Below are positions 1-60,187 of a DNA stretch of 64,000 nucleotides, in pieces (the first letter of the stretch is position 1; each line of letters opens with the position of its first letter). A program made the position numbers and the translations under genes. The stretch comes from Zygnema cylindricum (lineage: Eukaryota > Streptophyta > Zygnematophyceae > Zygnematales > Zygnemataceae): contig JBBHKE010003315.1 in assembly GCA_037447655.1 (NCBI GenBank), positions 1 through 64,000 of the forward strand, in the 5' to 3' direction. The notes under the pieces are model-generated. The model saw nothing but the letters and a program-made list of their open reading frames with translations. It did no database searches and was not told the origin of the DNA.

Positions 1-67
1 TATCTATCTATCTATCTGTCTATCTATCTATCTATCTATCTATCTATATATCAATTTATCTATCTAT
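1..67. repeat. TATC tetranucleotide microsatellite
   Basis: A run of TATC units with a few substitutions, continuing off the left edge of the window. It is a simple-sequence repeat with no coding content. The 68-350 stretch that follows is AT-rich and I recognise nothing in it. Confidence 0.95.
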
Positions 68-357
68 TTACATTACTAATCCCATTTTTGTATGATGTTT
101 TTTGTATTTTCTATTACTACAGAGTATCAAAAAGCAAAGAGATAGTGGGTCGAAAAAGTGGCCATAGTCATTGGTATAAGAGATACGACTAATACCTTGC
201 CTACGTCGCGTTTCGGTAAAACGAAATGTGGCGGTAATGAAAGCATTACCTGGTAGGGGAAAGAAAAACATAGTATAGGTGATCATTCCTCATCAAGAAT
301 TACTCGAGGATTTTCATCGATTTAAAAAAGCGGGAATGAATTTTTTTACGACAATTG

Positions 358-1885
358 TGCAAGATATGGCGTACGATATCATTATATGTTTAAAAAAAGA
401 GCATACGTCGAAGATTTTTGACAAATTTGGACGTGAAAAAAATACATGAATTTTTAAAAAGTGGATCCAAAGGTTTCATGAGAAACACAACATCGTCATC
501 CGTGCCCAAAAAAACAAATTATAGTTTGGAAAAAAAAAATACATTGAAAAAACTGTGGCGTTTCACTTTGGTGTTTTAAAAAAGGCTTCTTTTCGGGTAA
601 AACTTATATTTCATTGTATTTATGATCTTTTAATGTTTTATTTTGTCAAAATTGTTGTTTTATCATACCTAAATATTGCTTTTCTTACTCCACTTTGTTT
701 CATTGTTGTTGTCTTCATCGTGTGAACTAGGTGAGTTTAAAAAAAAATTAGTGGAGAATATAGATGAGACCCATTTGATATTGAATATAGACAATGGGAA
801 GACATTAGGCTTCCGTGTCGTTGAAATCGTGAAGTATGCCGATGTTGCGGGTAGAAGCAAATCCATGACTTTGATGGTGGATCTCACCGGAATGGTGAAT
901 ACAAAGATTGAATTACCCATACTTTTTCTCACAAACTGTAATTAGAGTTACTAAATTTGCAATCTCTTCGATGATATTCCAGGTATACATTCTTTTGTTT
1001 TTTCTTTTTGTCTTGAATTGTTTGTTTTCCCTCTCCGTTTCCACCTCCTCTCTCTTCCCCTTCTACCTCCTCTCTCTTCCTTCCTTTCAGCACTCCTTCC
1101 CCATCTCTCCCTTCGCTCCCCCTCTTCCTTTTTTTTTCCCCTTTTCATTCTATCCCATTTCTCTCTCCATGAATCCTCATTTCTCCACTTTTTTTCTCCT
1201 CTCTCATTCTTTACCCCTTCTCTATACTTCTCTTTTTATCTTCTCTTTATTTTCCTTCTTTATGTTTTTTATTTTAATGCCATTTCTTTTTTCCATCTAA
1301 CCAATATCAGGTGTGTGCTATCGCACTAGTCCAAAAATAGAACGACAGAAGAGTCTTATCCTAATGGTTTGAGGACCGGAAGTCGTATCAAGTCCATCTT
1401 TACGGTCGAGAAAAACTAGTATTCCTTGATAATTGCGGCGACCATAATATGTGCGAAGAACTCAACTGTGTTTTGGTTGCGAAAATTACGGTTTTACATT
1501 TTTTTTTTCACCGAGTGTTACTCATTTGGTGCAACCGACAGATATTTTCGTAATATCAAAAATAAATAAACTTTGGAGTAAAAAGTGAGAGAATTCGAAA
1601 ATGTCGAGGAATAAGAACAGACAGTGGTCACAACCCTCTAATCGAGGTTTGTTGGAAAAGTTATTAGGGCTAGAGAAAAGGTTTTTTCTCAAATTGGTTA
1701 GAGACTCGTTCTGAAAAGTTGACTTTATAAAAGACAAGGATATGATGGGATATGCGAGAAAAGCTATGATACAATGTGGGTTGTCATTGAAGGACGGGAC
1801 ATAGGAGGAGGGAATGCTTACACATCAATTCCAATGTATCATCGAAAAACACCAAAACGATTTCGACAACATTTCGATAGAAAAA
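358..1885 (+). pseudogene. DDE_1 (pogo/Tigger-like) transposase pseudogene with an intron
   Basis: Decayed transposase readable over several frames. The N-terminal part (about 358-600) reads like the DNA-binding region (KKWIQRFHEKHNIVIRAQ). From 676 one frame gives NIDETHLILNIDNGKTLGFR and KYADV, with the first catalytic Asp codon at 763-765, and runs with two in-frame stops to DDIP at 982. After an intron (983-1310) the frame resumes as GVCYRTSPK. Two frameshifts later it gives GREKLVFLDNCGDHNM (second Asp, 1428-1430) and a third-Asp region ATDRYFRNIKNK (Asp 1537-1539). The C-terminal tail GYARKAMIQCGL follows at about 1745-1785. These blocks in this order match the DDE superfamily endonuclease type from memory of the family. 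Multiple stops and frameshifts make it a pseudogene. Terminal inverted repeats were not found, so the element ends are unknown. Confidence 0.7.
983..1310 (+). other. Spliceosomal intron inside the transposase pseudogene
   Basis: A 328-bp stretch begins GTATAC after CCAG and ends ATATCAG before GTGTGTGC. Removing it joins D-D-I-P-G to G-V-C-Y-R-T-S-P-K in phase, the contiguous order expected of this transposase family. The insert is almost pure pyrimidine from about 1020 to 1260. The open frames within it are low-complexity Phe/Ser/Leu artefacts. Confidence 0.7.
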
Positions 1886-6825: not shown

Positions 6826-8988
6826 TGTTGTTCTATGATGAGTGGTGAAGGTGGTGCTCCAGCAGTAGTTGTAAAAGTAGACATACTTAAGTAGAAGCTA
6901 ACAAGAAATCCTTTAAAACACTGATCTTTATCACATTGTAAAAACTGACTCATATGTCAAATTTACTCAGAATTTTGCATACAAGATAATCACCATATAC
7001 AGTGTAAACTCCCAAAGTTACAAACAAATTGACTGAGATAACTATGAGATATGAGATTAGCAAGTTTCCCAAAAACTGCCCTTTAAATTCCCAAAATCCC
7101 AAAACTGAATACAAAATAATTCTAAGTCCTAAAACTTTATACACCGAGTGAGTATCTACTGCTCACTAACCAATCAGATGACTGCACTTGGAATAGTGGT
7201 ACTGAACTGTAGTACGACAAGGTTCTCTAAGGTACTTCCAAAAACCGAATTGCTACTAGCCTATAAACTAAACAGTGAAACGCTATTTTATAATGCACTA
7301 CGTTATGAAACTCTGAGACCTCCATTGGTCCTTAGAGTATGCAGATCCAAAAGAAGCTAATCTAGATAGTGCCGACTCCAAGTAGATATAAACCCAAGTG
7401 ATTGACCCTTTGACAGTCAGAACCCCAATATAGATTCACCCATGTGAAATAACACTTTTTGTGTGTTCAGTTCCACCACAGAATGCAAAGTTAAAATATG
7501 AGATTTGGACACATTCACCCACTTTGATTTTCCCTTAGAAATGCAGCCACCCTGGAAGACAAAAGCTATGAAAGACTACACCCCAGTGTAGCCTGAACTC
7601 CCCTGAGTCCGCAGCAAAAAGAATCACTGAAAATGGACAAGTAAATTGATAGTTATGGCTGGCCAAAGTTTGCCATTTATACAAGGTGCTCTCTGGGAGA
7701 GACAGCTACCTACCCAAAATTTTCTAAGTCCTATTCCCCCTCTAAAACCCTATCTACTAAAGTACGGTACCAATCAAATTACTGTGTCGTACAGAATAGT
7801 ACAGGTGCCGGTGTACTTTCTGTACGACCATTGTATAACATGGCCAAATTGTCGACACGTGTCATAGTCGGACTTGTTCCGGCAATCTCCGGAGTCGCCG
7901 CAATCCAGCACTGTCGCGCCACGTGTCACATGACGTGGCGATGGCTGAAAAACGCCAAAAGAAAATGTTCCGTGATCGCGGCACCTATCGTGGTCGTCCG
8001 ATCAAACCGGATACAATTCTAGTCGTTGAAAATACGCGCGCGATATTGTTTCGCGTTTGATATAAATGCGCGGTATCCGTTTTCATAAAATACATTAAAT
8101 CGTACTCCGTACTATACAAAACTGTATCTATGCATTACGTATCTATTTTCCGTTATACGAACTAGTCTACGTGTCTAAATATAAATATCTGTCAAACCTA
8201 ATGTACACTAGCAATGGCTTTAGACATATTGGTTAAAGCCAACGACTAGTTTGACGTAAGGTACGTACCAGGATCGAATCCTAGGTCCGTCAAACCTTTT
8301 AGATAACTTTATCAAGATTTGCCTTCTTGTCCTCTTTGGACACCCTAGGCAGCCATGGATCCAAATCCTCCTCAAGTCTTTAGTGACTGCAACAAGTGTG
8401 GGGACTTGAGTAAAGAGTTAGAGGCAGGCTGTCATTGTCCCATTTTTGCCTTTTATTTTTACAATCTCTAGACCTAGAAAACACTTGAATTTCCACTCGC
8501 TACAGATAACTGTTTCGTCACGTTTTCCTAATATGGAGCCGTAGTCATAATGTTGCTTGCTGAGTCAGGTAGTGTATAATAGGTCCAACCCACTGTTGTA
8601 AATTAGTACAAATATCTGGACTACTTACGGTGCATCTCGTCACCTGTGATCCCCACTCAAATCTCAATTGTCAGCCTAATACAGATCGACCTCCGATGTT
8701 TGCTCTTCACAATTATGTTCATATTTGTCCGGTTCATTTCCCGTCCGCCCGATTTGCGGAAGTCACTCGTTGGATAGACGCCATGTGTCCAAGTCCATTC
8801 CGTATTTCCTGCGTTTATCTAAAATGTCGACGCGTGTGTCATAAGATCGTACAAAATACTGTTAGAGTAATGTTTCACTGTCACACTATTTAAGATAAGT
8901 ATTACATCTAACATTCCCAAAAATATTCTAAGTATTATTTATCCCCTTACAGCTATATCAGTTGAGAATAAAGCTTTTAAAAACAACA
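6826..8988 (-). mobile_element. Family B copia 3' LTR (minus), interrupted by a solo LTR
   Basis: On the minus strand the segment starts TGTTGTTTTTAAAAGC at 8988, next to a purine tract (ATGGAG) and an RNase H remnant. It ends at 6826 with a short coding-like terminus MSTFTTTAGAPPSPLIIEQ, parallel to the gag start encoded in the family B LTR at 24123-24181 (MCTSTTTVALPPAPVVIK). Removing the inserted solo LTR (7306-8496) leaves about 970 bp, comparable to the 782-bp family B LTR at 23400. The outer boundaries are well supported, the interior is diverged. Confidence 0.65.
7306..8496 (-). mobile_element. Solo family A copia LTR
   Basis: The segment opens TGAAACTCTGAGACCTCC, the reverse complement of a family A LTR 3' end, and closes in CTAGACCTAGAAAACACTTGAATTTCC, matching the family A 5' end near 24592. 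Flanks are CGTTA (7301-7305) and CGCTA (8497-8501), a 5-bp target duplication with one mismatch. No internal sequence adjoins either side, so this is a solo LTR left by LTR-LTR recombination. The antisense tRNA-like T-arm of this family lies at 8268-8285. Confidence 0.75.
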
Positions 8989-10960: not shown

Positions 10961-11131
10961 GAGAAGGGCATGGTCACGCATCCGGAACCGCATTAGCATT
11001 TGGGGTTGAATTACAGGTCTTCTATACACACCTTCTCGGACATCTGCCCTAAACCTCCCGGTTTCCAGGACCACAATGCACTCTATTTCTGGCAGTGAGC
11101 CCTTCTCATATTTTTCCCAAGTACGCTCGAC
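10961..11131. repeat. Dispersed direct repeat X, copy 2
   Basis: Second copy of the block at 9798-9946, sharing AGAAGGGCATGGTCACGC, GCATT.GCATTTGGGGT, CCCTAAACCTC, CCACAATGCACTCTATTT and TACGCTCGACAGC. It is in the same orientation. Confidence 0.75.
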
Positions 11132-12224
11132 AGCACCACTATTTCGCCCCATGAACAACAACCTGTTCTCAAACTCGTCGAGGAAGAAGAATGCGAGGCA
11201 ATTGTAGCGCAGTTGATACAAGGACGGCCAAAAAGGATGAGAGGACCTCCTTCTACACCCTTGGAGTTTGAATGTGATCTTTGAGGGCCATTATATACTA
11301 GCAATAGCAAAGACGATGAAGATTACAAGCCATCCAAACACTCCTCAGAGTAACCTATCGTCAATAGAGAGGAACCATCACAGGACGCTACTTTTTTAGA
11401 GCACACCACGGAAAGGGACTTGAAGGTCCACAAATTCGATGGAGATGCCTCTACAAAGGAGAAGCAATCGGTCGAAAGTACGGAGGGGCTAGAAGAAGCT
11501 GTTGTTTTTAGAAAGCTTTAGTCCTCTCTATGCCTCAGGTGTTCAGGACTTAAGCTATTTTTGGTTGAGTTTGGTTCATTACTTACCAAAATTTTGGTTC
11601 ATTACTTACCAAAATTAGTGTGACAATGAAGTTGGGAGTTCACAATTCATTCACACTTGGGACACTCGTCGTCACTTCAGAGAATGTGTGTGTATGTCCT
11701 CCGTGGACGTACGGAAATTTGGCAGGACCACGGGACTTCGTGAAGGCAGTTCTACAGTGCCAAATCCTCTAATCGGACCACTGACAGCCGCCGCCAACAA
11801 ATAGTGACGAGGCGTGACTAGATCATTATCACTTTACTTTGTCTGAACTTTGGTGTAAATATTTGGTAGAATAAAACTTTGTTCGTAGTGAATTGTTTGT
11901 TGTGATATAATCTTAGATGTACGGCTGGAATGCTTCCGTACAGCTTAGTGTAGTTTCGGTGTATAGAAGTAGGACTTAGTGAATTTGATTTTTAGGAACA
12001 AATGATATGAAAACTGTACACTCAGTTTTATGTTATTTCATCTCTGCATATCTCACAAGTTTGTGAGCGGAATTGATTGAAATTTTGTGTGTGTGTTCTT
12101 TTGTATGTTATCTACACTGTGGTAAATTTTCAGGACCATTGGAGTTTTTCTGAAAGTTATAGTCTGTCAAAGTTGCTGTTCAGCCATTGGTATTTGTGGA
12201 TTTTCCTCTCTTGATTTTTTCTAC
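11132..12224. other. Repeat-derived stretch without a supported gene
   Basis: No coding sequence is supported. A 23-bp word containing GGTTCATTACTTACCAAAAT is tandemly repeated at about 11574-11618. The stretch leads into an LTR-like 3' end at 12225-12281 and may be old LTR sequence. Confidence 0.4.
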
Positions 12225-12281
12225 GATGACTACTGCTCCATCTTCTTCAACTTCAGTGCCAACAGTTGTCTCAGAACAACA
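12225..12281 (+). mobile_element. Terminal fragment of a family B-like LTR
   Basis: ATGACTACTGCTCC... to ...GAACAACA reads M-T-T-A-P-S-S-S-T-S-V-P-T-V-V-S-E-Q-Q. This is the same short Thr/Pro-rich LTR-encoded gag start seen at 24123-24181 and, on the minus strand, at 6826-6900. It ends in the same AACAACA followed by GGT. The upstream extent of the LTR is unclear. Confidence 0.45.
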
Positions 12282-12360
12282 GGTAAAACCCTAACATTAA
12301 CGAATGGGTTCTAAGTTTCCGTTTGATGTGTCTTTTACCAACCTTTGATGCTTACCAGTT

Positions 12361-12630
12361 GACCTCTCCCGCTTCCTTTCACACACCTCTCATTTTCCCT
12401 CTGCCTCTCTGGCCTCTTGCCACTTGTAGCTCATCTTTCGCCTCCTAATTTTTTGTCCTCTTTTCACCTCTTTCTTTCTTTACCCTCTCTCCCTATCTCT
12501 TTCTCTCCCTCTTTTTTCCTCTCTCTCTATTTGTTTTTTTGAAAAATAGAGGGTGAAATAGAGGGAGTGTGAGATAGAAAGGGAGAGAGAGAGAGAGGGA
12601 GGGAGCACTCAAATCTCCCTCTCCCTCTAC
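12361..12630. repeat. Pyrimidine then purine low-complexity tract
   Basis: CT-rich sequence (12361-12540) switches to AG-rich sequence (12541-12605) and back to CT. The two arms could pair as a loose inverted repeat. No coding content. Confidence 0.85.
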
Positions 12631-12639
12631 CCCACGCCA

Positions 12640-13449
12640 GTCTAGAAGTCTGGATACATCAAATGTTCAAAGTCCTAAGTCTTATACTAGTAGTTTGTTT
12701 CTACTATTAGTCTTCCTATTACATAGTTGTGTATCCCCGATACTAGTTCTCCTAAGAGATACATCCAAGAACCAAACTACCACTAAGATCTAAGTACTCC
12801 TAATCACGCTAAATCTAAATCTATCAATATACACTCAATATTAGTGAGAGATCAAGACTAAGTAATTGTACAATTACTTGCTGCTGGCTTAATTATTATT
12901 ATCCCGATATGTCCATCTAGATGCTACAAAATTACCTGCAAGCAAATTACTTGTCATCCTTTCTTGAATCTCGTCTATCGACTTGATTTACATCAACTGC
13001 AGTTGCGTGTTCCCGTTCCGGATCATATTCAACATACCACAGCTTCGTCGCAGCTTCGTCGGCCCGTATCATCATTTCTTGAATCTCGTCTATCGACTTG
13101 ATTTACATCAACTGCAGTTGCGTTGTCCCGTTCCGGATCATATTCAACGTACCACAGCTTTGTCGCAGCTTCGTCGTCTCGTACCGAAGCATTTCCAAAA
13201 ATAACCGCAGCTGATTTGTCTTGTCTGCGTCGCAATTGCTTTGTCCCATGTGCGTCACAATTGCTTTGTCCTATCTGCGTTGCAACTGCTTTGTGTCGTT
13301 CATTGTGGGACATGCGTATGTGGATGTCGGTGACATTCCAAAGTACCTGTTTCATTCTTAAGTGACAATGCGTGTTCTTTACGGTACATTTAACTCTCTT
13401 TCTACCGTCACACTAACTTATTGAGTCTTAAAACTTTCCAATTTGAACA
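12640..13449 (-). mobile_element. Family B copia LTR, truncated, minus orientation
   Basis: On the minus strand it begins TGTTCAAATTGGAAAGTTTT, then AAGACTCA, at 13449. This parallels the start of the family B LTR at 23400 (TGTTGATTTTGGAAAGCTTT). It contains the same GCGACGCA/CAATTG repeat words typical of this LTR at 13210-13300. The gag-start end is missing. An internal tandem duplication lies at 12956-13185. Confidence 0.6.
12956..13185. repeat. Tandem duplication, two 115-bp units
   Basis: Units 12956-13070 and 13071-13185 share TTTCTTGAATCTCGTCTATC, TTACATCAACTGCAGTTGCG and TTCCGGATCATATTCAAC with few differences. They lie inside a family B LTR copy. Confidence 0.92.
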
Positions 13450-13460
13450 TTTCTAATAAT

Positions 13461-14330
13461 TGTTGTTTTGGAAAGCTTTAAGTCTCAGCCAATTTATAGG
13501 ACGGCGAAAAAATATATCTATAGAGACACGCGTCGTCACTTGAAGCACAGTGCAGGTTTTTGAATGGTACCGACACCTGCAATGGAATAACGCAGCTGCG
13601 ACGCAGATAGAATAAGCGCAGCTGCGGTTATTTTTGATATGTTGTACGCACATATGCAGCCTGCGACGCAACGGGACAAACGCAACTACGGATATTTTGG
13701 TATAAGACAACGCAGATGCTACGCAACAAGACAAACGTAGTTGCGGCGGTCTTTGGTATGAGACAACGCAACTGCTACGAAGCTGCAGATATTAGAATGT
13801 AATCAGGAATTGGACTGCGTTGCTACGGTTGATATGGATCGAGTCAACGGACGAGATTTATAAGAGAATAATTAAATGAATCGCTAACAGATGTTCTGTA
13901 ACAGTCGGATGGACATACCCAATCAATTGTCATTAAAACCAGGCGACAAGTAGTTGAACAGATGACCTGTATAGGATTCTCAGTAATATTGATTGTATTG
14001 TGATAGCTTAGTTTTAGCGTAATCAGGGGAACTTAGATCTTAGTGACAGTTTAGTTCTTTTGACGATCTCAGGGAGCACTTGTATCTACAGACAACTATG
14101 AAGTAGGACAACCGAGTGAAGAGTATAAGACTTAGGACGGAGAACTTTGTGTATCCGACCCGAACTGCCTAATCCCAAACTGCTTTTGGGAAACTTCTGA
14201 GGCTATATCTTGGTGTGTATTGGATCAATTGAGCTGAAACTTTGGGAGTTTTTAGTCTTTGTGATATTCTATATTGTGGTATAGTTTGAAGAAGTTTGTT
14301 TCATTCTGTTAGATTTGGCCGTCTGCGTTT
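13461..14330 (+). mobile_element. Family B copia LTR, plus orientation
   Basis: Starts TGTTGTTTTGGAAAGCTTTA followed by AGTCTCAG, and matches the LTR at 23400-24181 at both its start and its late part (GGGAAACTTCTGAG, GAGCTGAAACTTTGGGAG). It carries the same ACGCAGCTGCG words at 13588-13790. It ends abruptly at about 14330 against the gypsy RNase H remnant, so the gag-start terminus is missing. It faces the minus-oriented LTR ending at 13449, 11 bp away. Confidence 0.7.
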
Positions 14331-14334
14331 AGAC

Positions 14335-15710
14335 TAAGCAGACCTGGTCGGTGAATTATTTCAACGTCATATTCTTGTAAGATTAAAGCCCATCGGGCTA
14401 ACTTCCCGGAAAGCTTATCGTTCGTCATCAGCCAATGTAAGGGCTAATGGTCAGTTAAGAGTCTGAAAGGTTTTCCGTACAAATAATGGCGGAAGTGAAC
14501 GACTCCTTAAACCGCGGCTAGACATTCTTTTTCGTAGCTACTATAATTTGATTCAGCCCGGTTATTGCTTCTACTCGTGTAAGCAACTACGTATTCCTCT
14601 CCACTCAACTCTCTTTATGTCAAGATGGCAGCGATTCCGGGTTTTCCAAAATCTGTTTGGAGACAAAAAGGAAGTTTGTGATCAAGAGGACGGAGAATTG
14701 GAGCACTCGATAAGGCGTTTTTTAATTTTTGAAATGCGGAAATATGATCGGGACCCCATATAAACGCCACTTCCTTCTAGAGAAGGTCGTTTAACGGAGA
14801 TGCGATGGTGCTAAAATTAGATACAAACATGCGATAATAATTAGCAAGTCCGAGAAAGGCTCGCAGACTGGTGAGGTCCGTGGGAGCAGGAAATTTACTG
14901 ATTGCTTCTACCTTTGCCTCGAGAGGAGTGATCCCCTCAGCCGAGATAAAATGTCCGAGGTAAGGCACTCCTTCGGCTCCAAAGGTGCATTTCGCTGGAT
15001 GACATTTTAATCCGACCTTTTTCAATTCAGTCAATACCCATTCGATGTGAGCAACGTGCTCTTCGATAGTAGCCAAGGCAATGATAAGGTCATCAATGTA
15101 ACATCTAGCAAACTTACAGCCTCCTAGAACGGAGTCCATGACTTTGTGAAATAATGCCGCAACATTTTTCAGTCCGAATGGCATTACGGCCCATTCCCAT
15201 CGGCTATCCCTACCCCAAAAGGCAGTTTTATGCCGATCTTTTTCCTCTATCTAGATTTGATTGAATCCTTGACGGAGGTCAAGGATACTAAAATAATTTG
15301 CTACGCCTACATGATCAAAATATTTCTTCCGCAATAGGCATGGGATGATGATCTTGAACTGTTCAAACATTTAGTTCACGATAGTCACCACACATTCGAC
15401 GTTCAGTAAAATTACCCTCGTAATCCTTTTTCCAAGGCATGACGGTGGGAGCTGCAAATGTGGAGTTTGATCGATAGATTAGGCCAGCTTCCTCTAGTTC
15501 AGCACATCCGTTAATTACCATTTCCCATTTGGTTTTTGACAGACGATGTTTTGGTTTAAGTATTTGGCGTTCATCTTCGAAATCTATCGACATCATATAA
15601 GTGGTGTGACGACCCAAATTGTTCATCCAAAAGGTAAATCCATCGATATTTTGCATAACTACGTCATTCACTAATTCTTGTTCTGCCTGTGTTAGATTGG
15701 TGCCGAATTT
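14335..15710 (-). pseudogene. Ty3/gypsy reverse transcriptase-RNase H (pol) remnant
   Basis: Read on the minus strand this is a chromovirus-like or gypsy-type RT. The upstream finger region 15671-15363 (KPKHRLSKTKWEM, EEAGLIYRSNSTFAAPTVMP, MCGDYRELNV) is followed by ILDLRQGFNQI near 15290, KTAFWGRD..WEWAVMPFGL near 15180, the catalytic YIDD box at about 15090, and YLGHFISAEGI, LRAFLGLANYYR to 14777. RNase H pieces continue to 14335, ending ARWALILQEYDVEIIHRPG. In-frame stops (for example after FNQI) and at least two frameshifts break it. Integrase is absent, because the fragment ends at a family B LTR. The preceding domain in the same reading direction is a DNMT (15711-17070). Confidence 0.88.
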
Positions 15711-17070
15711 TCATTTAGGGGCCTCGGGACTCCTAATTTTCATGGCCTCCATAGCCTGTGCAAAGGCCAATTGCTCATCTGCGATGAGCGTTTGACCTAA
15801 CTTGTATGCCACAGGTGCTTGTTTAAAACAATTGTCCCAATGATGCCAACTGCATGTATAGAAAGCAACAATCGAATGCGGGGTAGGTGGATCATGCATG
15901 GGAATTGTTGACTGGATAGCAGTGTATACAAGAATAGACCACGACATATAGCTAGGGTTCAAAAAATCGTAGATAGAAATTCCCGAGACTGGTGAAATTG
16001 GAGAAGGAAAAAGGAAAAAATGAAACGTGGTCTCTTTGAGAGTAGGACAGAAAGATTTACTTCGTGATGCATTCCCTCCCCAACAGGTTGAGATAGAAGT
16101 ACTTGAGAGTGGCGACCAGTTGCGAACCCGAGACCTAAAACAAAAGACAAAAACTAAGGGTCCATGACACAACTTAACAAAGTGCAATTTGAAATTTGGT
16201 GAGACAGAAGCGGTTGTAGTGCCAGTGATGAAATAAATAAGGTGTTCTCGGTCCGCAGAGGTATGCTCTTCAAGCTCACCAGTACGAATGTTTCGGAGCA
16301 TGCCCGGGCCGTCATTAGAAAATGCATGTGAGTGTGGATAAGAAACTAAGGTAGGAAGAACTTTGAGAGGTTGACTAGGGAGATTGATATTAAAATTAGG
16401 TGGATGGTCCTTTTGAATGCAAGACTGCACCTTATAGAAAGGAAGAAGTGCAGCCTGAATGTGTATTGGAGGAGGCCAAACTGACGGGTTAGCGTCACGG
16501 AGTCGTCCAATATCAATCACGTTTGTCCATTTAGAGCAAACCCGGTGTGCTAGTAAACCATGGCGAGCGGCGTCAATAATAAAAGGCAAACCAATTAATT
16601 GTTCGATTTGTTGATATTCAGCCAAGCAGTAGGTCTTGGATCATTATGAGCTGCGACATTTTCCAAAATATACCCCATAGGATGCTCTAAAGTTCGTAGA
16701 AAGTAGAGGATGCAGACCAATTCAAAAATAATTTGGCACGGGGATCCGCCGATCCGAGGCCTTTCACGGCTTGAGACATTCTTTGGCACTCCCATCCGCC
16801 AAAAACTAGATCAACTAGCCCAATCTCCAATAAGTGATAGTTGCCCACAATCCGGATGTCTTGTGGGAGGGCAGTATGCATATGCTCGTATACGGATTTT
16901 GGAAACAAATGCGGGTATTGGGGAAACAACAGATTGTGATGATCTAGTTGTACTTTCCGTGCTAAAGGATTAATTTCGTCAGAATATTAACGTCAGATTA
17001 ATAATCCGTTTAGCAAACAGGAAAGGAGGGAAGTGCCAATTTCAGCGAAAAGGTCCAAAATCACAAATCC
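15711..17070 (-). pseudogene. Retrotransposon-borne cytosine-5 DNA methyltransferase domain
   Basis: Joined over a few frameshifts, the minus strand reads as a C5-DNMT. Motif I GFVILDLFAEIGT is at 17070-17032. A motif II-like YSDEINPLARKVQLDHHN follows near 16986-16930. ALPQDI and then motif IV DLVFGGWECQRMSQAVKGLG with the Cys-Gln pair lie at about 16815-16760. Motif VI YILENV is near 16670-16655. LIGLPFIIDAARHG..AHRV..KWTN (a motif VIII-like AHR) and TLVSYPHSHAF..DGPGM..SADRE (motif IX region) lie in a 304-codon open stretch at 16625-15711. The order and spacing fit the family. Frameshifts lie near 17000, 16735 and 16625. The last 150 codons of the open stretch are unrecognised. The domain sits directly upstream of the gypsy RT, with no LTR between. 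It is not functional as it stands. It may once have methylated retroelement or host DNA, which is inference. Confidence 0.8.
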
Positions 17071-17143
17071 ATTAGGATGGGAACTCAATTGGACCGGTGT
17101 CATGACGTACGGCGTGGGCGAGTATTTTTACTCTGATCCCATA

Positions 17144-17350
17144 TTAATTGACGTACATATGACCAGACCGGTGTATAACCGCGTGTATACGGCATTGTAC
17201 AAACGAATCCAATACCATATCACATTCACGTACAACAAAATGTGAAATCAGCACGGAGCTGAACCGTGGTACGACATCATATGTTAGGAACTCAAACGGC
17301 TCCAAATGTGACAGATGTTTGAAGTCATGAACCCTCGAAGGTTCATGCAT
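17144..17350 (-). pseudogene. Possible gypsy protease C-terminal fragment
   Basis: A 68-codon minus-strand open frame precedes the DNMT. It contains ISHFVVRECDMVLDSFVQCR and IHAVIHRSGHMYVN, loosely like the end of a retroviral-type aspartic protease (hydrophobic strand, IIG-like turn, then a strand ending in YV). The active-site DTG/DSG triad is not visible. I call it protease-like only because of its position before DNMT and RT. It could be unrelated linker. Confidence 0.3.
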
Positions 17351-19181
17351 TATTTTTGCCTAGCTTAGGGAGGGTTTTTATCCTCGAGCTGTGGATGTAA
17401 GGCATTCGAAGCGCCACTCAACATTCGTCTCTAAAAATTGGCAGCGTTTGAATATAGAAATCTGCATGTTTAGAGACATATAGGAATTAGTGAAGCTGTA
17501 TGGTTAGTGAGAGCATAGGATAAATGCCATTTGACAAGATAAAAACTTTGTAAATTAAGCACGGGAGTCCAACATTGGAAGTTTGTCGTTTTTTTGGCAA
17601 TCATTATTCTCGAGATTTTTGGAACACTGTGATAGTTATGGTTTCACCTAAATATTTAGTGACAGGCTAGTTTTTGAGTTACGGTTTTTTTTAGGCCCAT
17701 AGTCTATGCTAGTGACTGTCTTTGAGCACTATCCTCTCTTTTCTACCAAGTCCTTACCTAATCTACCGGCGCAAGCCAGCCTGCAAGGTTTCCTTCTAGA
17801 CTGTGTTCTATTTGCCTTGGTGTACAAATTATGTGGTGCGGATTTGGTGTTTTCTTGGTGTTAGAGAGTTGACTTTGCAGTCTAGCTCCAGTCTTGTCTG
17901 GCTTTGTGGGAATACCAGCTATCTCGGCTCTTTCGACTAGTTAGGCAAGGTTTTCTGGTCCGCTAGTTAGACTCATGTAGGGGATATTGAAAGACTTCAA
18001 GGCCTAGTGGCTACTGTTGCAAATATTATTGTGCTTAATTTGTTTCATTTCTATTTTTTTTTATTCCTTGTATCAAATGTTTTCTCTCTGTCTACTTTAT
18101 TTTAATTTGTTTCATTTCTAATTTTTTTATTCTTTGTGTCTCCTGTTTAGTTTGTTTTTTTTAATTTGTTGGTAGTTAAAAAAAAAAAAATTATGTTATG
18201 TTTTGTCTAGTTTGTTTTTGAGTTGTTGAATCTGAGATTGTTGAACTGTCCGGTATTGTTTTCTCTCTTTCTTCCTACCGGATTAACTCACTTAGAACAC
18301 CTGGAAAACATTAAAACTTAAAACTTAAAAAAAAAAAACCTCAAATATATATTAATATATATAGTAGGTTGCACGAATTATAACATCGAATTCTTGCTCT
18401 TTTATAGACGGTTAGAGCGTGGCATAGCGCTGATACGTGTACCCTAACACGGTACTAACTAGATTGGTATTTTGAGCTGTGATCTCTTCTCGAAAATTCA
18501 GAATTGGAGGGAGGTTGGAGCATCGCTGGGAGACCTTACAGATCGCTCCAGGTGAGTAGTCAGGTCCTTATGGTTGCAGGCGCGTGATACATTGTTAAGC
18601 ACGCTAACCTAGAGGGGTTAAGATTCGTCCGAAGGCTATGCCTTCCTTTCCGCATAGGCATTATGGCTGTATTTTCTTTAGATTTGACCGTGATTGGTCT
18701 TGGATAGCGACTTCTTGTCTATGACATCTGGCATTGTTGGGCCTCGGATAGTTTCCTGTTTTATTACATCTGGTCTTGTGGGCCTTGAATAGTTTCCTGT
18801 TATATTTAATCTGGCAAAAAATGACCTTGCATAGGTGACATGTTTCTTCTTGGAGTGGCTTGAAGTGACTTATTGTGGTATTGCTTAGATCTGTCAGTGA
18901 ACAACCTTGTTAGGGTTGTTGACGACTAGACGAACCCGGTGATACAGAATAGATCAAATCGTTTACGGGGGTGCCTGTTTAGGTGGGTGCGTGTTTGCTT
19001 GAATTTGAAGACTTCTTGTGTGATTTGTTAAGAGATATGGCAGTGGGCATTTGCACACTGGCCTTGAGTAGGGTCCGGCATCTAGTTGCATCCGGATAGG
19101 ACGACTGTCTGTTTACATGCCAACAGATTGGAATGAATTACCGTTTCTAGCTGGTACCACTAGAAGCTCTAGTCTTTACCA
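17351..19181. other. Repeat-derived non-coding stretch
   Basis: No gene is supported. The stretch 18030-18200 is rich in T runs, and 18655-18835 has imperfect roughly 50-bp repeats around TC(T/G)GGATAGTTTCCTGTT. The sequence leads directly into the 430-bp leader of element C and may be its LTR or untranslated leader, but no second full copy is present to prove it. Confidence 0.4.
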
Positions 19182-19611
19182 CTGACCGGAACGGGATTTG
19201 ATTCCTGCCCGCTCACCTCCTGTCCACTTTCTAGGTTATAGCGGTCATATCGCTCAATCTCAGCTTACAGGCTCACCCAACTCTAGATTTGGTATTACCA
19301 GCACATATAGATCTACATCATGTGTCTTCTCATCCTCTTTCCATAGGTGGGGGGAAGATTCTGACAAAGACTCTCTTGATATCCGGGATCTAAATCTATT
19401 GCCTTAGCTTTTTCCTCTGGGCGGAAATATACACACTAACTTTGATTCCAGTTTTGAGGACATGGCCTTGTCCATAGACACCGGAGGAGGTAAAAATCAG
19501 TTTTGTTTTTTGGGTCTTACGGACAATATGCCTTTGTCACATTTTCATATGTTATTTGATACACAGATGCGCGATCTCACATTCCAGTATCAAGACCGTT
19601 AGGATTTAAGG
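19182..19611 (+). repeat. 430-bp element C leader, copy 1
   Basis: Starts CTGACCGGAACGGGATTTGA and ends AGGATTTAAGG. It appears identical base for base to 21784-22213, including an identical 69-codon open frame. It precedes gag copy 1. Identity over 430 bp contrasts with the strong divergence of the gag sequences that follow. Confidence 0.95.
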
Positions 19612-19692
19612 GTTGCATTTTCCTTACTTGGGAGATAACTTCGGGGATCTGCCCTATCTCTATATTTACGGAAATATAAGGCAATTTGTGCT

Positions 19693-20616
19693 ATGACAGA
19701 AATGGCACCTGCATATTCTAGATCTCTAGCCATAATTGGCAGCAAAACAATTATTTTCCAAGCCGCGTTACCCGCAATTTATGACTCTCGAAGTAACGGG
19801 TTTTTACCTGAAATACTTGAGGTCCCTCATCAATTCGTTGTTGCACCTCGGCCAGCAATTCTGGCTCGACCTGCAATGATGTTCACTCTTAGGGATCCGA
19901 TATCATTTGTTTTCAGTTTATTACAGGAAGAGTACCGAATGCAAAATCTCAATCAAGTCAAAGAACTAATGAATTTTGAATGTCGACCAAGCGAAACTGC
20001 TCGGCATTGTGAGCACGTATGGAAACATTTCGTGAAGCATTACGTGACCTCATGTTAGACGCAAAGGCAGTTCAGAAATTTGTGGGGCAATTTCCCACCC
20101 AATCTCGAGATTTCATTCTAAGCAATTTGATTGAAGCATATAGCCTCAAATTAACTTTCGAGCAGGCTGCAGAATATGGCGTAAGCTATGAAAAGCAGGC
20201 TAGTTGGTGGGACGCTCATGAGCGACCTAAGCCTTCTCTTAGGGATTATCCAAATCCGAACGGGAATCCTAACCCTCGCCCATGGTCAAATACTAGACCT
20301 CGAAGGGCTCTGGCCATGGTAACACTACGAACAACCCTCGACGTGCGTACATGCTTCCGTTGCGGTAACACAAGTCATGACGCAAGCAATTGTCGAGATA
20401 AGACAGCCAAGTATACCCATTGCATTCAGAGCGGTCATTATGCACATCATTGTCACATTAAAAATCTCGACTTTAGTTATCAAAATCAAATCAAAATTGG
20501 TGGGATACTTGCTCTCTCAGCAAAATTGGTCACTCCACCAAAAGAGATCGAGAAAGACACACCTCCCAAAATCAGCAGTAGGGACCGAGAGAAGTCTGAG
20601 TAGCAAGCTACCGTAG
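19693..20616 (+). pseudogene. Element C gag-like protein, copy 1
   Basis: Two overlapping frames (19693-20058 and 20019-20603) give one Gag-like protein. The N-terminal part has AAL PAIYDSRSNG and EVPHQFVVA; the middle has WWDAHERPKPS. Then come two zinc knuckles: CFRCGNTSHDASNC at about 20350-20390, and a second in which the first Cys is Tyr (YTHCIQSGHYAHHC). The tail is Lys/Pro-rich and shifts frame again. Tandem CCHC knuckles indicate a nucleic-acid-binding capsid protein of an LTR retrotransposon or a LINE ORF1. I cannot assign the superfamily because no RT is attached. It is broken by a frameshift at about 20030-20050. Confidence 0.6.
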
Positions 20617-20922
20617 CGGCTATACTGAAAGAGCAGTTTGCCGCCATTCAGGGGCAGGTCAAACTACAACTATCTGGAATGGCCCAAACCGTGGTCCATA
20701 TGCCCTCTTCTAGAGGTCGATCTTTTCGGGAGTCGACTGTTCAACAAAGAGCAGCTCTGTTCAAAGGTACTCCCGATCATAATCAAGAGTCAAAAACTCT
20801 TAACACCCGCTTACCATTATCATTTTCTAAAGAGCCTCACACACCTATTTCAGAAACAGCCTCTTGTATCATCGCTAAGGCATTAACAATCTCGGAGAGG
20901 AGTATACTATCAATAGTGTTCT

Positions 20923-21783
20923 GTCAAGCTCGTTGGCTTTACCGGCACTTCTTTAGATCACCGTGGATTTCCGGGCTCTTTCACCCTTGCACGGTCATCG
21001 GAGTACGGAGGAAGGAGTGTACCCAGCCGAACAAGATCCTCCTATTTCTTCAAACTGAGCGGAACGCACTTTATTTTATGCCTAATGGAGGGCGGAAGAC
21101 GGCGTTATTACGTTTCAAGATTACAATCTCTGCTGCATGCGACCAATTTCCACCTGTCACTTTGGGGGCTACATTGTGGAACGCCACGTAGCTTTTGGGA
21201 TAATCTTGTAGATTTTGTTGTTGGCTATCTGTAGGAGGTTAGTAACGAGGTAGAGTATTTATTACCTTAAGTCAAAGTTAGGCGTTTCACGTCAATTCAA
21301 AACTTTGTGCTATGAGTGTATCATAGAATGACACTTGGCTTCTCATCTAGCCGGAGCTAGTCGCATAACGTTTTGCCCTGAGTGTAGTACAACTTGTTTT
21401 GTCTTATGGCTGTACGATAACAATTCTTTGCCGCTGATTGGCTCTTGGTATTGCTTTGACTTTGGTACTGTCTGTAGGACAAACTTTGCTTGTATAAGAA
21501 ACTTGGGGCCGAAGGAGACAGGTTGTTGTTTCAGTACTGTCTCCAGAGAAAAACTCTAGAAATTCCACCAAAATTTCTTGTGGAGAAATTTATTTTGTAT
21601 GTGATTGTGACCCTTTTGCCATCTTGGTTTCGCATCCGTCCTTTGTGGAAATTGTAGTCCGGTTTGGTGGTTGGCACTGTCTATCCTGTTTGGGCGATTT
21701 GGGACTGGTGTTTGTTGGAAACCGAGAAGGGTCTTGCCAGTTTCGGGTTGCGGAAACTGAGGAGTTAAGGAGGCTTTACCTGA
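20923..21783 (+). mobile_element. Element C long repeat between two gag copies
   Basis: Aligns with 9943-10880, from TTCTGTCAAGCTCG to the TGGTTGGCACT region and beyond. It lies between gag copy 1 and the second 430-bp leader, so it sits where an LTR shared by two tandem or recombined copies would be. No TG..CA ends or target duplication could be fixed. Confidence 0.5.
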
Positions 21784-22213
21784 CTGACCGGAACGGGATT
21801 TGATTCCTGCCCGCTCACCTCCTGTCCACTTTCTAGGTTATAGCGGTCATATCGCTCAATCTCAGCTTACAGGCTCACCCAACTCTAGATTTGGTATTAC
21901 CAGCACATATAGATCTACATCATGTGTCTTCTCATCCTCTTTCCATAGGTGGGGGGAAGATTCTGACAAAGACTCTCTTGATATCCGGGATCTAAATCTA
22001 TTGCCTTAGCTTTTTCCTCTGGGCGGAAATATACACACTAACTTTGATTCCAGTTTTGAGGACATGGCCTTGTCCATAGACACCGGAGGAGGTAAAAATC
22101 AGTTTTGTTTTTTGGGTCTTACGGACAATATGCCTTTGTCACATTTTCATATGTTATTTGATACACAGATGCGCGATCTCACATTCCAGTATCAAGACCG
22201 TTAGGATTTAAGG
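21784..22213 (+). repeat. 430-bp element C leader, copy 2
   Basis: Identical to 19182-19611 at an offset of 2602 bp. At its right end the sequence switches at a shared AAGG into family B gag sequence. Confidence 0.95.
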
Positions 22214-23399: not shown

Positions 23400-24181
23400 T
23401 GTTGATTTTGGAAAGCTTTAAGTCTCAGTGAATTAGTATGACAACAGAAAGACAAATTCACAAGGACACGGATCATCACTTAAATCACTTCTATAGGTAT
23501 ATTGGCTTGGCACTTACATCCACTTCACACATCAAGGGGATACAACGTAGCTGCGATGCAGCAACGCAACTGCAATACAACAACGCAGCAGCGATATATC
23601 AACGCAGCTTCAACGCAGTCAGAACAATGCTGCTGCAACTAAGTTAAGATAACACAACTGTGATTACATTTGATATGTTCCGTACGGAGGACGCAGTTGC
23701 GGACACTTTGATATTATTTAGTATTGTACAGAGCAGCTGCGATAGATACAAATCTAGTTAGCTCAGTGGCAGCTTAGTGGTAGCTCAGTAGTTTGATGAC
23801 AGATTAGTGTTAGCTTGGTGTTTGACGTACCTCTCAGGTACACTTGTCTCGTTCGTACAACACAAGTATAAGACTGAGGACTCAAAACACAAAATGAATC
23901 GAGACTTCCAGGTAGTAAATTGTAGACAATAATTGGGAAACTTCTGAGTATTATATCTAGAGTGTTGTCAAGTCAATTGTGCTGAAACTTTGGGAGTTTT
24001 CAGTGTTTATGCTACTCTATATTCTGATAGAGTTTTGTGAGGTTTCAATGATTGTATAAGATTTGGTGAGCACTTGAAAACAACTGTTTGAAAGGATTTT
24101 AGATAGCTTTTGAGAGTGTATCATGTGTACTTCTACTACTACTGTTGCTCTTCCACCTGCACCGGTGGTCATAAAACAACA
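23400..24181 (+). mobile_element. Family B copia 5' LTR
   Basis: Begins TGTTGATTTTGGAAAGC and ends AAAACAACA. The primer-binding-like GGTTATGGGC follows directly. It contains a variable run of CAACGCAGC/TGCGA words (23541-23640). The last 59 bp carry the start codon and first 20 codons of gag, so the LTR encodes the Gag N-terminus. It lies within element C gag. Confidence 0.8.
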
Positions 24182-24591
24182 GGTTATGGGCTTGTTATCA
24201 AGGATTCCTATCTTTTTTGGGGAAAAATATGATTACTGGGCGGATATGGTGGAGACACATTTTGAGAATGTCAATCTTTTGGACATATTGGATGGTTCGC
24301 AAGATGAATCTGATCCGTCATGGTATAAAAATAATACGCAAGCTTGTTCTATTTCTGAATTTTGTACATTTGAGGACTTAGCTATGTCTCGGATAAAAAT
24401 GAGAAAAACAATTGATATTTGGAAATCCCTTGAAAATGATTATGAAAAGGCTAATGTCCAAAAAGAACTCCTATTGGCTGGAAAAATTTGGGACTATAAG
24501 TACACTGGAAGTACAATGGCTGAATATTCTAACAAATTTTGCATCCTTGTAGATACACATGCTTGTGCAGGTGAGGAGTTTCGTTAGTTTC
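24123..24591 (+). pseudogene. Family B gag, part 1
   Basis: Start codon 24123 lies inside the LTR. The sequence runs MCTSTTTVALPPAPVVIKQQ and then VMGLLSRIPIFFGEKYDYWA, continuing with typical copia Gag features (YDYWADMVETHF, IWKSLENDYEKA, EYSNKFCILVD). An in-frame TAG (24584-24586) follows EEFR. The A1N element then inserts after GTTTC (24587-24591), and the frame resumes at 28853 as QQATLLMKGLS. The region is not functional as read. Confidence 0.85.
24182..24192 (+). promoter_or_regulatory. Primer binding site, family B
   Basis: GGTTATGGGCT immediately after the LTR matches the first 10 bases of the site used by the A elements, complementary to the anticodon region of initiator tRNA-Met. 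It is read as gag codons V-M-G-L. Confidence 0.6.
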
Positions 24592-29383: not shown

Positions 29384-29387
29384 GATA

Positions 29388-30880
29388 ATGGATACAGAAG
29401 CGTCATCCCACATGTGGTGGAACAAAGCCATCTTCAAAAATCTGAAAACAACGACAGAGAAAAATATTTTTTATGCTTGTGGAATGAGTGTTCAAACTCG
29501 TGCTGTGGGTGATGTGTCTTTGCTAGTGGATGTGAAGGGCAAAGCAATTGAAAGAACTCTTCACAAAGTCTTTTTAATGCTTGACTTTAAGAAAAATTTG
29601 TTTTCTACGTCTTTGGTAGAGAGTAAAGGCTTTGAGGCTCATTTGAAAAATGGTAGGCAGGTTGTTAGCAAAAATGGCAAAGTTGTAGTTATTGGTACTA
29701 GAGATGATAGCAAGATGTACCAAATGGATATGGTTAATACCAAGGAGAATGATGTTTTGTACTCTGGTGTTTTGCATTCACATGATTTGTGGCATAAAAG
29801 ATTAGGCCATGTAAACTATGATAGTTTAAGAAAAATGGTTCTTGCTGGAAGAATACAGGGTGTATCAATCACAGATCAGCCGGCCAAAACATGTGATGGC
29901 TGAGCTTTGGGAAAAATCCACAGACTGCCATTTCCTAAAGCGTCTGAGCATCGATCAACAAAAAATTTACAACAAATTCATTCGGATGTTTTTCGTCCTG
30001 CGAAGGTTCCATCTGCCGGGGAATGAAATATATGGTCACTTGACAGATGATTTCTCCACGTTTACAAAAGTGTAATTCATGAAAGAAAAGAGTGAAGTGT
30101 TTGGTCACTTCAAACACTATAAATCATAGGTTGAAGAACTTCATAATTAACCTATCTTGCAGCTCAGATCGGATAATGGTGGTGAATATACATCGAAGGA
30201 ATTTGAAACATTTTTACTCAAGGAATGTATAAGTCATCTGTTGACTGTTCCATATTCACAGGAACGAAATGGGGTTTTGGAGAGATTAAATAGAACTCTC
30301 ACGGAGAGTTCTAGGTCGATGCTCGCAGATAAGAATGTGGATCCGAAATTTTGGGCTGAGGCTCTAAATTGTGCAATTTATGTTAAGAATAGGATAGACC
30401 AAGATCGGCAGACTCTACTCCTTATGAGATTTGGACAGGTAGCAAACCAGATGTAAGCCATTTCAGAGTCTTTGGTAGTCAATGCTTTATCTTCGATACA
30501 TCTATAGACAAATGGAAATTGGAACCGAAGGGATTACCGGGTATTTTGTTAGGATATGATGATCACTCAAAAGGTTACAAAGTCTTTGTATTTGAGAGGC
30601 AAAAAATCGTTTTAGTAAGGAATATCATTGTCAAAGATGAACTAGACTCGATAGATTTATTTCAATTGACAGAGCAACAAAAGCAGCAAAAAGTACATGA
30701 GTATGTCATTTTAGATTGCATGCAAGAAATTGTCCCGCAGGAGCAACAATCTCCGGTGGTGACTAAGGAGTCAGACTCTCTCCAAATTCCTCAACAAGTT
30801 CTCCAAATTCCTCAACAAGTTCAGTTCCAACAGGACCAACAACAATCGATATGCACGGATTGCAGCCAACACAATTAGCG
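29388..30880 (+). pseudogene. Family B protease and integrase
   Basis: The first frame (29388-29903) has a degenerate protease motif DTEASSHM (DSGAS in relatives) and the GAG-pre-integrase block HDLWHKRLGHVNYDSLRKM. Integrase follows over frames to 30880: a decayed zinc and catalytic start, then LRSDNGGEYTSKEF (second Asp) and ERNGVLERLNRTL (Glu) at 30157-30456, and the C-terminal GYDDHSKGYKVFVFERQKIV at 30519-30640. A short CAAATTCCTCAACAAGTT duplication lies at about 30780-30825 in the integrase-RT linker. Stops and frameshifts make it inactive. Confidence 0.87.
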
Positions 30881-43429: not shown

Positions 43430-44847
43430 CTAGTCAATCTTTAATTTCAAACCACACTTCTCCCTGCAAAAAATTAGCTTAGGGGAAGGCACAGGTTTGG
43501 TCATCATATCTGCTACCATCTCACTATCTGGTCTGTACTCTAAACTGATTATTTTGTTTTCTACTTTCTCTCTAACAAAGCTGAGTCTGATGTCCATGTG
43601 TTTGGCTTTAAAATGGTGTTTAGGATTGGCAGAAATAGCGATTGCTGCCTGATTATCACAAAATATTTTCTGCACACCACTCTTAAGGTGACCAAGCTCA
43701 CCAAGCAAAGACTTGACCCACATCAATTCTTTTACAGCAGAGCAAGAGGCCATATACTCAGCCTCCATGGTGGACTGAGCAATAACCTTTTGCTGTTTGC
43801 TACTCCAACAGCAAGCCCCATCACCCACATATAATACATATCCAGAAGTACATCTCCTCATCGGAGCATCACCATAACTGGCATCACTCCAAGTAGTGAT
43901 GTCAGTATTCTCCCCACCCAAATGCAACCATAGATCTCTAGTTCCTACCAAGTATCTAAGGACTCTCTTAGCTGCCTCCCAATCCTTCTTAGTGGGAGCA
44001 TTTAGACTTCTACTCAGCACTCCTACAGCTGCAGCTAAATCCGGCCGGGTACAATTCATAAAATAGATTAGACTTCCCACTACTTGCCTGTAAGGAATAG
44101 TCTGCATGAACTTCTGTTCATCAGGAGATAATTCCTCGTCTAAGACTATGACTCCTTCTTCCTCACTCCCCTCACTTCCCTTCTTCAATTCCATTGGAGT
44201 TGTACAACTATTAGCTTTATCCATTTGAAATTTTTCAAGCATGTTCCCTATTGCTTCCTTTTGAGTCAATCTTATAATTTTTCTTTTTCGGTCTCTCTCT
44301 ACTTGAATTCCCAAAATATATTTTGCTTCCCCCATATCCTTCATTTCAAATCTCCCCTTAAGATCGGTTTTCAGTTTATTAATTTTTTCCATTGATTTAC
44401 TTAAAACAAGCAAATCATCAACATAAATTGCAATAAATATAAAACCTTCCTCATCTTCGAAAACATAGATTGAGTGATCTGAGCTGATCCGAATATATCC
44501 TAGACCGGTAAGAAACTCATCAAGCTTCTTATTCCACTGTCGAGGCGCCTGTTTCAAACCATAAAGAGATTTAATCAGCCGGCATACCTTACTCTCCTCT
44601 CCTTCTTCCACAAACCCTTCGGGTTGTCGCATGAAGATCTCCTCTTCTAATTCTCCATGCAAAAAGGCTGTTTTTATGTCCATCTGGTGAACTTCCATGT
44701 CTTCCGCCGCTGCTAAACTGAGAAGTATGCGGACGGAGGGAAATCTGACCACCGGGGCAAAGGTTTCCTCGTAGTCAATTCCTTCCTTTTGTGTAAATCC
44801 CTTTGCCACTAATCTGGCCTTGTAGCGCTCGATTGTGTTATCTGGGT
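43430..44847 (-). CDS. A1 reverse transcriptase-RNase H, frame 2
   Basis: Second part of the A1 polyprotein, in a different frame from the first because of a 34-bp deletion at about 44848. RT runs from VAKGFTQKEGIDYEETFAPV through the first Asp (VHQMDIKTAFLHGELEEEIF), LYGLKQAPRQWNKKL and the catalytic box IAIYVDDLLVLSKS to YILGIQVERDRKRK. RNase H has WSDASYGDAPMRRCTSGYVL, STMEAEYMASCSAVKELMWV and CDNQAAIAISANPKHHFKAK, and ends DMMTKPVPSPKLIFCREKCG. All catalytic residues visible here are intact. As it stands it lacks the RT N-terminal block (residues for KSIGCKWVFKL), so the copy is probably not autonomous. Confidence 0.9.
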
Positions 44848-59700: not shown

Positions 59701-60187
59701 CTGTCACGGTGAATTTGCCGCCGGCATTGGTCGTGTCGATCGTCACGCCCGATACTTCCGTGCTGGAGAGCCACAGTTGGAAGACTTTCGGTCCGTCCGC
59801 CGTATTATAACAAGCTAATACGACCGAATTTTCCATCTCGGCGATTTTATCCCTCATATTGAAACCCCAGGAGACCCAGCCACCTGGCGTAGTTGCGTTA
59901 GATACGTACAAGCCTTCCATGTACTTGCGAGTTTTGTCCACATTATTATCGTATGTGAGGGACCATGCGAGCGTGGAGTTGTCTTTCAGAGTGGCGCAGG
60001 TCGAGTAGTTGGTGCCGGGGACGAACTGGAAGTACTTGTAGCAGCCGTCAGTTGCGGCGTCAGTTGCGGCGGCAGTTTGGGCGGGAAAAGCAGTTAGGAT
60101 TAGGGTAAGGGTAAGGGTTAGGGTTAGGAAGAGCGTGGCGTTTCGGGTTAGGGAGGCGGAGGCGGAGGGAGAGGGAGAGGACGCCAT
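56721..60187 (-). CDS. Double-DOMON cytochrome b561 protein, four exons (633 aa)
   Basis: Exons 60187-58850, 58543-58301, 57568-57434 and 56906-56721, all with GT/AG junctions and in phase, give 633 residues. Residues 1-40 are a signal peptide (hydrophobic LFLTLTLTLTLILTAF). A first DOMON domain (about 48-220) has possible haem ligands Met118 and His218. A Pro-rich linker (245-266) leads to a second DOMON (268-416; Met330, His414). The cytochrome b561 core from residue 447 has His448, His482, His513 and His549 in the two-haem arrangement and five membrane spans, ending in a short charged cytoplasmic tail (KKNRDPELEAPL...). CYBDOM proteins pass electrons across the plasma membrane, probably from cytosolic ascorbate to apoplastic iron or other acceptors (family knowledge). 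Two DOMONs are unusual, since most plant members have one. Exact ligand assignment is inferred by position. Confidence 0.93.
57855..58255. repeat. GA-rich tract in intron 2
   Basis: About 400 bp of GAGAGG/GGGAGA sequence on the plus strand, so the transcribed (minus) strand is CT-rich. It lies inside the 732-bp intron 2 (57569-58300). Long Ser/Pro/Leu open frames here are artefacts. A shorter CT-rich tract (56940-57000) occurs in intron 3 (56907-57433). Intron 1 is 58544-58849. Confidence 0.93.

Follow-up and report, generated by a model that had tools for sequence, protein, structure and literature searches.

Hosts hold transposons in check chiefly by DNA methylation, and elements that themselves encode the methylation writer pose a direct puzzle, of which a limited literature search returned few published cases. 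The question is raised by one locus in a 64,000-nucleotide stretch of the Zygnema cylindricum genome (contig JBBHKE010003315.1), hereafter the window, where a preliminary description had recognized the motifs of a C5-cytosine DNA methyltransferase (DNMT) on the minus strand, directly upstream of a Ty3/gypsy reverse transcriptase (RT). Is the DNMT genuine, does it belong to the element, and what could it do for a transposon?

A methyltransferase domain in a broken pol fragment

Translation of the minus strand located the five DNMT motifs quoted in the preliminary description (I, IV, VI, VIII and IX) in the order given there, and the domain as a whole is spread over three frames with the motif order normal (Table 1). 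The extent first claimed for it, 15711 to 17070, needs correction: the DNMT runs from about 17094 to 16157, and 16156-15711 is a linker that is also present in relatives. As claimed, no LTR lies between the DNMT and the RT downstream of it. There are two frame changes within the DNMT and one ahead of motif X. The 309-aa frame of the DNMT had no Pfam match and, in a comparison with proteins, none at E ≤ 10 among 669 candidates. When the domain was read through its breaks and compared with approximately 5.8 billion proteins, P0001, a 503-aa ENA protein on a 14.7-kb contig, was the sole match at E ≤ 1 among the 899 candidates scored (E = 8.8e-58, 43% identity over 95%). A check against the C5-methylase profile PF00145 succeeded for this relative, which scored 32.4 bits (cut-off 22), and fell short for the window copy itself, at 18.6-19.1 bits. 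Alignment of P0001 to the window by tblastn gave three collinear pieces spanning 17094-16230, with 88, 27 and 106 bits, whereas shuffling the window 100 times with its dinucleotides preserved gave at best 31.6 bits; the 88- and 106-bit pieces exceed the shuffles and the DNMT is not a chance resemblance, and the 27-bit piece counts by its position alone because it lies below the shuffle maximum. In addition, a 99-aa piece matched a PHROGs DNA-methyltransferase family (3.3e-7), and the best PDB match of the window DNMT was DNMT3A (E = 0.1). A C5-DNMT within Ty3/gypsy pol, as first proposed, is thus supported by the homology to P0001 and by the same DNMT-RT arrangement in other genomic copies.

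Table 1 Features at and around the locus, in window coordinates
Feature	Position	Strand	Basis
Truncated pol fragment (DNMT - linker - RT - RNase H), dead	14319..17097	-	Collinear with L018, L016, L015, L025
C5-cytosine methyltransferase domain, predicted DNMT3-type, broken by stops and frame changes	16157..17094	-	tblastn to P0001, profile of ten relatives
Motif I, DLFAEIGT (family A relatives: DLFAGIGT)	17055-17032	-	
Motif IV, GGWECQ; catalytic Cys retained, Pro to Glu as in family A	16800-16783	-	
Motif VI, ENV	16663-16655	-	
Motif VIII block, AHRVCSKWTN	16550-16521	-	
Motif IX block, SADREHL	16259-16239	-	
Motif X-like, LLSCVMDP, in another frame (family A relatives: LLGRVMDP)	16180-16157	-	
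DNMT-RT linker	15711..16156	-	Piecewise matches (35-74% aa) in family A relatives
Ty3/gypsy reverse transcriptase, with stops	14777..15710	-	RVT_1 E=1.1e-17 on 14780-15250
RNase H	14342..14776	-	RT_RNaseH E=1.1e-33 on 14303-14779, stops read as X
Second copy of the same family, 5' part: A repeat (17098-18025), leader, gag region	17098..20907	+	71-83% DNA identity to L019, L009
Probable end of a different repeat, cutting the pol fragment at 14319	13466..14318	+	Blocks common to 23406-24066

The fragment spans 2779 bases and is collinear, at 87-88% DNA identity, with four copies of the family termed A below (L015, L016, L018 and L025), whose matches share both end bases in the window, the pol side ending at 14318 or 14319. 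At that end, the adjoining repeat has two direct-repeat blocks in common with 23406-24066 (94 nt, 79%; 83 nt, 73%). At the other end, the A repeat at 17098 starts with TGTCATG, as do other A repeats; a sister copy is inserted into, or joined to, the minus-strand copy just ahead of the DNMT. Because this LTR-like, opposite-strand repeat abuts at 17098, no protease remains in the window copy: comparison of the region upstream of 17091, which is the sister A repeat, with the first 180 residues of P0001 gave nothing over background, and Pfam matched no gag, protease or integrase in minus-strand 17091-19993 or 11001-14400. Scans of the window for tRNAs and Rfam families were empty.

In the frame of L016, the fragment carries ten stops together with six private 1-base indels and is therefore dead, which excludes the idea that this copy itself could methylate its own DNA. 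Its dN/dS against L016, with the ten stops set aside, is 0.34, near the 0.26-0.32 of its relatives, suggesting that much of its divergence predates its death. The locus is almost certainly a decayed pol fragment from a DNMT-carrying Ty3/gypsy group.

Several other features of the window were recorded. Two plus-strand copies of 300 bases (19181-19480 and 21783-22082; spacing 2602 bases), which lie within or close to gag of the DNMT-carrying gypsy family, are 100% identical while the blocks adjoining them are only 76-81% alike, suggesting that conversion took place recently, that part was duplicated or that the assembly is at fault. A 115-base unit is present in two tandem copies (94%) at 12954-13183, adjoining sequence in which GCAGCTGCGTT-like words abound. 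On the minus strand, 43433-47754 holds a Copia element that is largely open, its frames of 968 and 475 aa including gag, integrase and RVT_2; further Copia pieces have Pfam matches at 24114-24584 and 29385-29900, and others were seen as frames only. At 58820-60232 on the minus strand lies a likely host gene, whose DOMON-type domain reaches 32.1 bits (cut-off 32.7); a cytochrome b561 part downstream of this domain was suspected, and Pfam gave no confirmation of it.

Copies, architecture and ends of the element

The genome searched comprises 352.8 Mb in 2689 contigs; a search of this assembly for plastid rbcL had no match. The PF00145 profile gave at least 123 matches (123 scored of 782 candidates), all over the cut-off and in frames of up to 2395 aa; from 3011 candidates, the window RT gave at least 150 scored matches, comprising the window (100%) and others at 77-94% identity; and a family A DNMT query gave at least 115 matches, with 114 of 1881 candidates scored. 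Many entries in all three lists contain stops. Stretches of 10 kb were fetched around 20 of the 123 PF00145 matches, mostly picked for long frames. In this genome-wide check for intact protease-DNMT-RT copies, 18 of the 20 have a DNMT and, behind it in the same orientation, a gypsy RT, the order being missing only in L027 and L028; 17 had an integrase match and 15 a plant homeodomain (PHD) match. Sorting by sequence placed 12 stretches in family A, the window's kind, six in family B and two in family C, so that the genome appears, on this sorting, to hold at least three DNMT-carrying families. DNMT identity between A and B is about 39%, and P0001 is closest to A (49-50%).

DNMT-less gypsy copies with a clean junction, named at the outset as evidence against a DNMT built into the element, were sought in a second sample led by RT (12 of the 150 scored matches, taken from rank 10 onward at intervals of about twelve, with 1 kb per match), with a partial answer. 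The DNMT was in place on the right strand in seven of the 12, covering 330-333 of 355 residues in six and 136 in one, and a protease adjoining the RT was met in none. The other five comprised two stretches with repeats that occur several times in the window, one linker-RT stretch so shifted that its DNMT would fall outside its 1 kb, and two matching nothing recognized.

These samples bear on the alternative that a DNMT gene of the host, or a methylase of bacterial or viral origin, came to lie beside a gypsy element by chance or local insertion. The broken state of the window copy and its missing 5' side would fit such an accident, but the arrangement recurs in both samples, and in long single frames, and this recurrence refutes the alternative, to which we give practically no weight. 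Microbial methylases are also distant: 185 phage methylase records match a family B DNMT, at 24-26% identity among the eight matches listed; no relative was confirmed among 84,980 prokaryote genomes in pattern-led scans with both P0001 and the ten-copy alignment A2; and viral contigs yielded nothing with three queries and two weak matches (27-31%) with the ten-copy alignment.

One copy, L009, reads from gag through to the PHD in a single frame of 2395 aa. Searched in separate pieces, it revealed, in order, a gag CCHC zinc knuckle (20.5 bits, slightly under the cut-off), an aspartyl protease (19.8 bits, below the cut-off of 24.3), the DNMT (PF00145, 49.0 bits), RVT_1, RNase H, an integrase (H2C2 and rve) and, at the C-terminus, a PHD finger (E = 3.6e-10). 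The Ty3/gypsy order of protease, RT, RNase H and DDE integrase is thus present in L009, and the window copy retains RT-RNase H only. The family B copy L012 carries a DNMT (47.8 bits, above the cut-off as in L009), RT, RNase H, integrase and a weaker PHD match (21.7 bits, cut-off 24); its first frame, of 510 aa, had no match in the domain search. The nearest solved relatives of the element PHD finger are those of PHF12, Lid/KDM5, BAZ2B, WSTF and PHF21A, several of which read the unmodified H3 tail. A distant gypsy element in L024 (RT 41% identical) has gag, a zinc knuckle and a protease adjoining the RT, without a DNMT. Because the protease and RVT_1 matches are separated by approximately 168 residues in this element and approximately 730 in L009, the DNMT looks added between protease and RT.

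The element ends were examined in two copies, both of family A and from two subfamilies, and both have the layout A1-coding-B1-A2-B2. In the first copy, the A repeats are 931 bp long and 100% identical and the B repeats 243 bp and 99.6%; in the second, the values are 1388 bp and 99.64% for A and 190 bp and 99.5% for B. The near-identity of the A repeats apparently reflects recent movement. Both copies have the outer ends TGTCATG...CGACA and lie between 4-bp target duplications (TTGG/TTGG and AAGG/AAGG); plain LTRs at both ends were found in neither. Neither mark of DIRS elements, a tyrosine recombinase or the lack of a target duplication, was present, the integrase being of the rve and H2C2 type; the ends join a DIRS split-repeat layout to the short duplication expected of a DDE integrase. 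The B1-A2 spacer consists of the bases GC in both copies. This GC may be the preserved end-to-end joint of linear cDNA, and because it looks like such a joint the split repeats may derive from a circular intermediate. A separate arrangement was observed in L014, where A repeats at 4-797 (+) and 8145-8931 (-), in opposite orientation and 97.5% alike, flank one DNMT element with an integrase match cut short, another nested or rearranged copy.

Class and conservation of the methyltransferase

A profile built from ten copies and compared with PDB scored best with DNMT3A (7.7e-20), with DNMT3C and DNMT3B near it, followed at a distance by HaeIII (6.8e-9), HhaI (8.1e-8), DRM2 (8.6e-8) and DNMT2 (2.7e-7). 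With DNMT3 as the best solved class and the motifs running in linear order from I to X, the element DNMT is, as judged from its sequence, DNMT3-type.

The catalytic Cys of motif IV and the Glu of ENV are invariant in all ten aligned copies, and both are present in the window. The Pro ahead of the catalytic Cys is replaced by Glu (WECQ) in 11 of the 12 family A stretches, in P0001 and in the window, the twelfth stretch, L021, having no segment that fits the pattern; WPCQ is retained in every family B and C segment listed. Because of this replacement, the family A enzyme may be weak, altered or dead. A stronger form of this doubt is that the family A DNMT is no longer an enzyme and was retained, after the change from Pro to Glu, as a DNA-binding or structural part of Pol. 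The presence of WECQ in these 11 family A stretches, in P0001 and in the window, with WPCQ kept in the listed B and C segments, speaks for such a loss; against it stand the invariant Cys and Glu, the retention of motifs VIII and X in family A, and selection. Between the family A subfamilies, the DNMT shows pN of 0.11-0.16 and pS of 0.78-0.81, and closer pairs in families A and B gave dN/dS of 0.12-0.39, where one pair is based on very few changes and the estimate in close pairs is biased by the choice of copies with open frames. The DNMT is under purifying selection, as is the DNMT-RT-RNase H stretch overall. We therefore consider a non-enzymatic family A DNMT unlikely and prefer the reading of a maintained, if possibly altered, methyltransferase.

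Possible function and related systems

Taken as a whole, the best explanation (a decayed DNMT-gypsy fragment, an old DNMT3 capture and an element that methylates its own cDNA) is in our view very likely, although its parts differ in strength. A single old capture is probable: it would have taken place once, from a eukaryotic DNMT3, before the families split. The DNMT would then be released from, or work inside, the Pol polyprotein and methylate the double-stranded cDNA of its own element, either ahead of integration or during it, while the PHD finger in the integrase tail would read histone H3 and aid the choice of target. The new copy would thus arrive methylated already and could, as a consequence, evade detection of unmethylated foreign DNA or set a chromatin state tolerated by the host. 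The cDNA step is suggested by the anatomy of the element and by similar elements, and we put it forward tentatively, as somewhat less than an even bet. Published experiments point both ways: the DNMT3 of a dinoflagellate DIRS element performs de novo CG methylation in yeast, but a LINE-type DNMT gave no de novo methylation there, and Klebsormidium nitens has a transposon DNMT and a methylome that is not unusual, the last two counting against the mechanism (PMC5890265).

The CpG observed/expected ratio of family A is 0.82-0.92 (six copies), a mild value that counts against a strong methylation imprint; it is 0.59-0.62, a clear depletion, in two copies of family B (L012:4586-7360 and L013:4449-7208) and 0.74 in the whole window. 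Transitions in the window copy affect 26 of 224 CpG positions, 92 of 960 other C/G and 57 of 1438 A/T, and the C/G excess, being hardly CpG-specific, counts against such an imprint too. As a separate observation, the contrast between a CpG-depleted family B (WPCQ) and a non-depleted family A (WECQ) may link enzyme type to methylation history.

The DNMT might instead act on the host or on rival elements and not on its own cDNA, silencing competitors or earlier copies and so limiting copy number and harm. A benefit to the host from slowed retrotransposition has been discussed by de Mendoza et al. (PMC5890265), and copies do adjoin one another, at 17098 in the window and in L014 with its two opposed A repeats, but the RT copies scored, at least 150, and the near-identical terminal repeats of two copies argue against strong self-limitation; we regard this target as decidedly unlikely and continue to favour the element's own cDNA. 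Going further than cDNA methylation, the element could be a writer-reader transposon, in which the DNMT3 marks the cDNA, the integrase PHD finger reads unmodified H3, both acting jointly within one polyprotein, and each new copy selects and then fixes its own chromatin state, the WECQ family having a changed chemistry or target. This we offer as speculation, with the chances well against it. In animal DNMT3, similarly, an H3 reader and a methylase are joined in one protein. At least three DNMT families, apparently recent insertions and a domain of histone-reading type in the same polyprotein would make the puzzle of a transposon-encoded writer testable, by comparing new with old copies, copies with and without a DNMT, and WECQ with WPCQ.

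Among known systems, chromoviruses are Ty3/gypsy elements with a chromodomain in the integrase. The element described here resembles them in having a domain of histone-reader type at the integrase C-terminus and differs in that a PHD finger takes the place of the chromodomain and in its DNMT and split repeats. With the host DNMT3 genes of streptophytes described by Yaari et al. in 2019, it has the DNMT3-type catalytic domain in common, whereas those genes carry DUF3444 and the element carries retroelement domains (PMC6453930). According to an opinion paper of 2019, land plants such as tracheophytes lack transposons that carry a methylase (PMC6338049), and a 2025 survey mentions retrotransposon DNMT3s again, naming LTR Copia and DIRS (PMC12344493).

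That retrotransposons have captured DNMTs, as the preliminary description stated, was already known: in 2018, de Mendoza et al. described Gypsy and DIRS/LINE elements with captured DNMTs, among them elements from Klebsormidium and Symbiodinium (PMC5890265). The term PHD is absent from the main text of that paper (PMC5890265), and our limited literature search found no report of a PHD finger beside a DNMT or of a motif IV Pro-to-Glu change in one family. SymbioDIRS-Dnmt3 of Symbiodinium likewise has a DNMT3-type domain in the Pol polyprotein and split repeats, and differs in its own tyrosine recombinase, in place of which the element here has an rve DDE integrase (PMC5890265). The nearest published element, likened by its description, is KnitGypsy-Dnmt3 of Klebsormidium nitens, an intronless Dnmt3-type domain in the Gypsy Pol frame, under purifying selection and with DIRS-like repeats alongside Gypsy domains, as here (PMC5890265). 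The element of Z. cylindricum differs from it in comprising at least three families, one of them with WECQ, in a genome of 352.8 Mb. The K. nitens genome is approximately 100 Mb.
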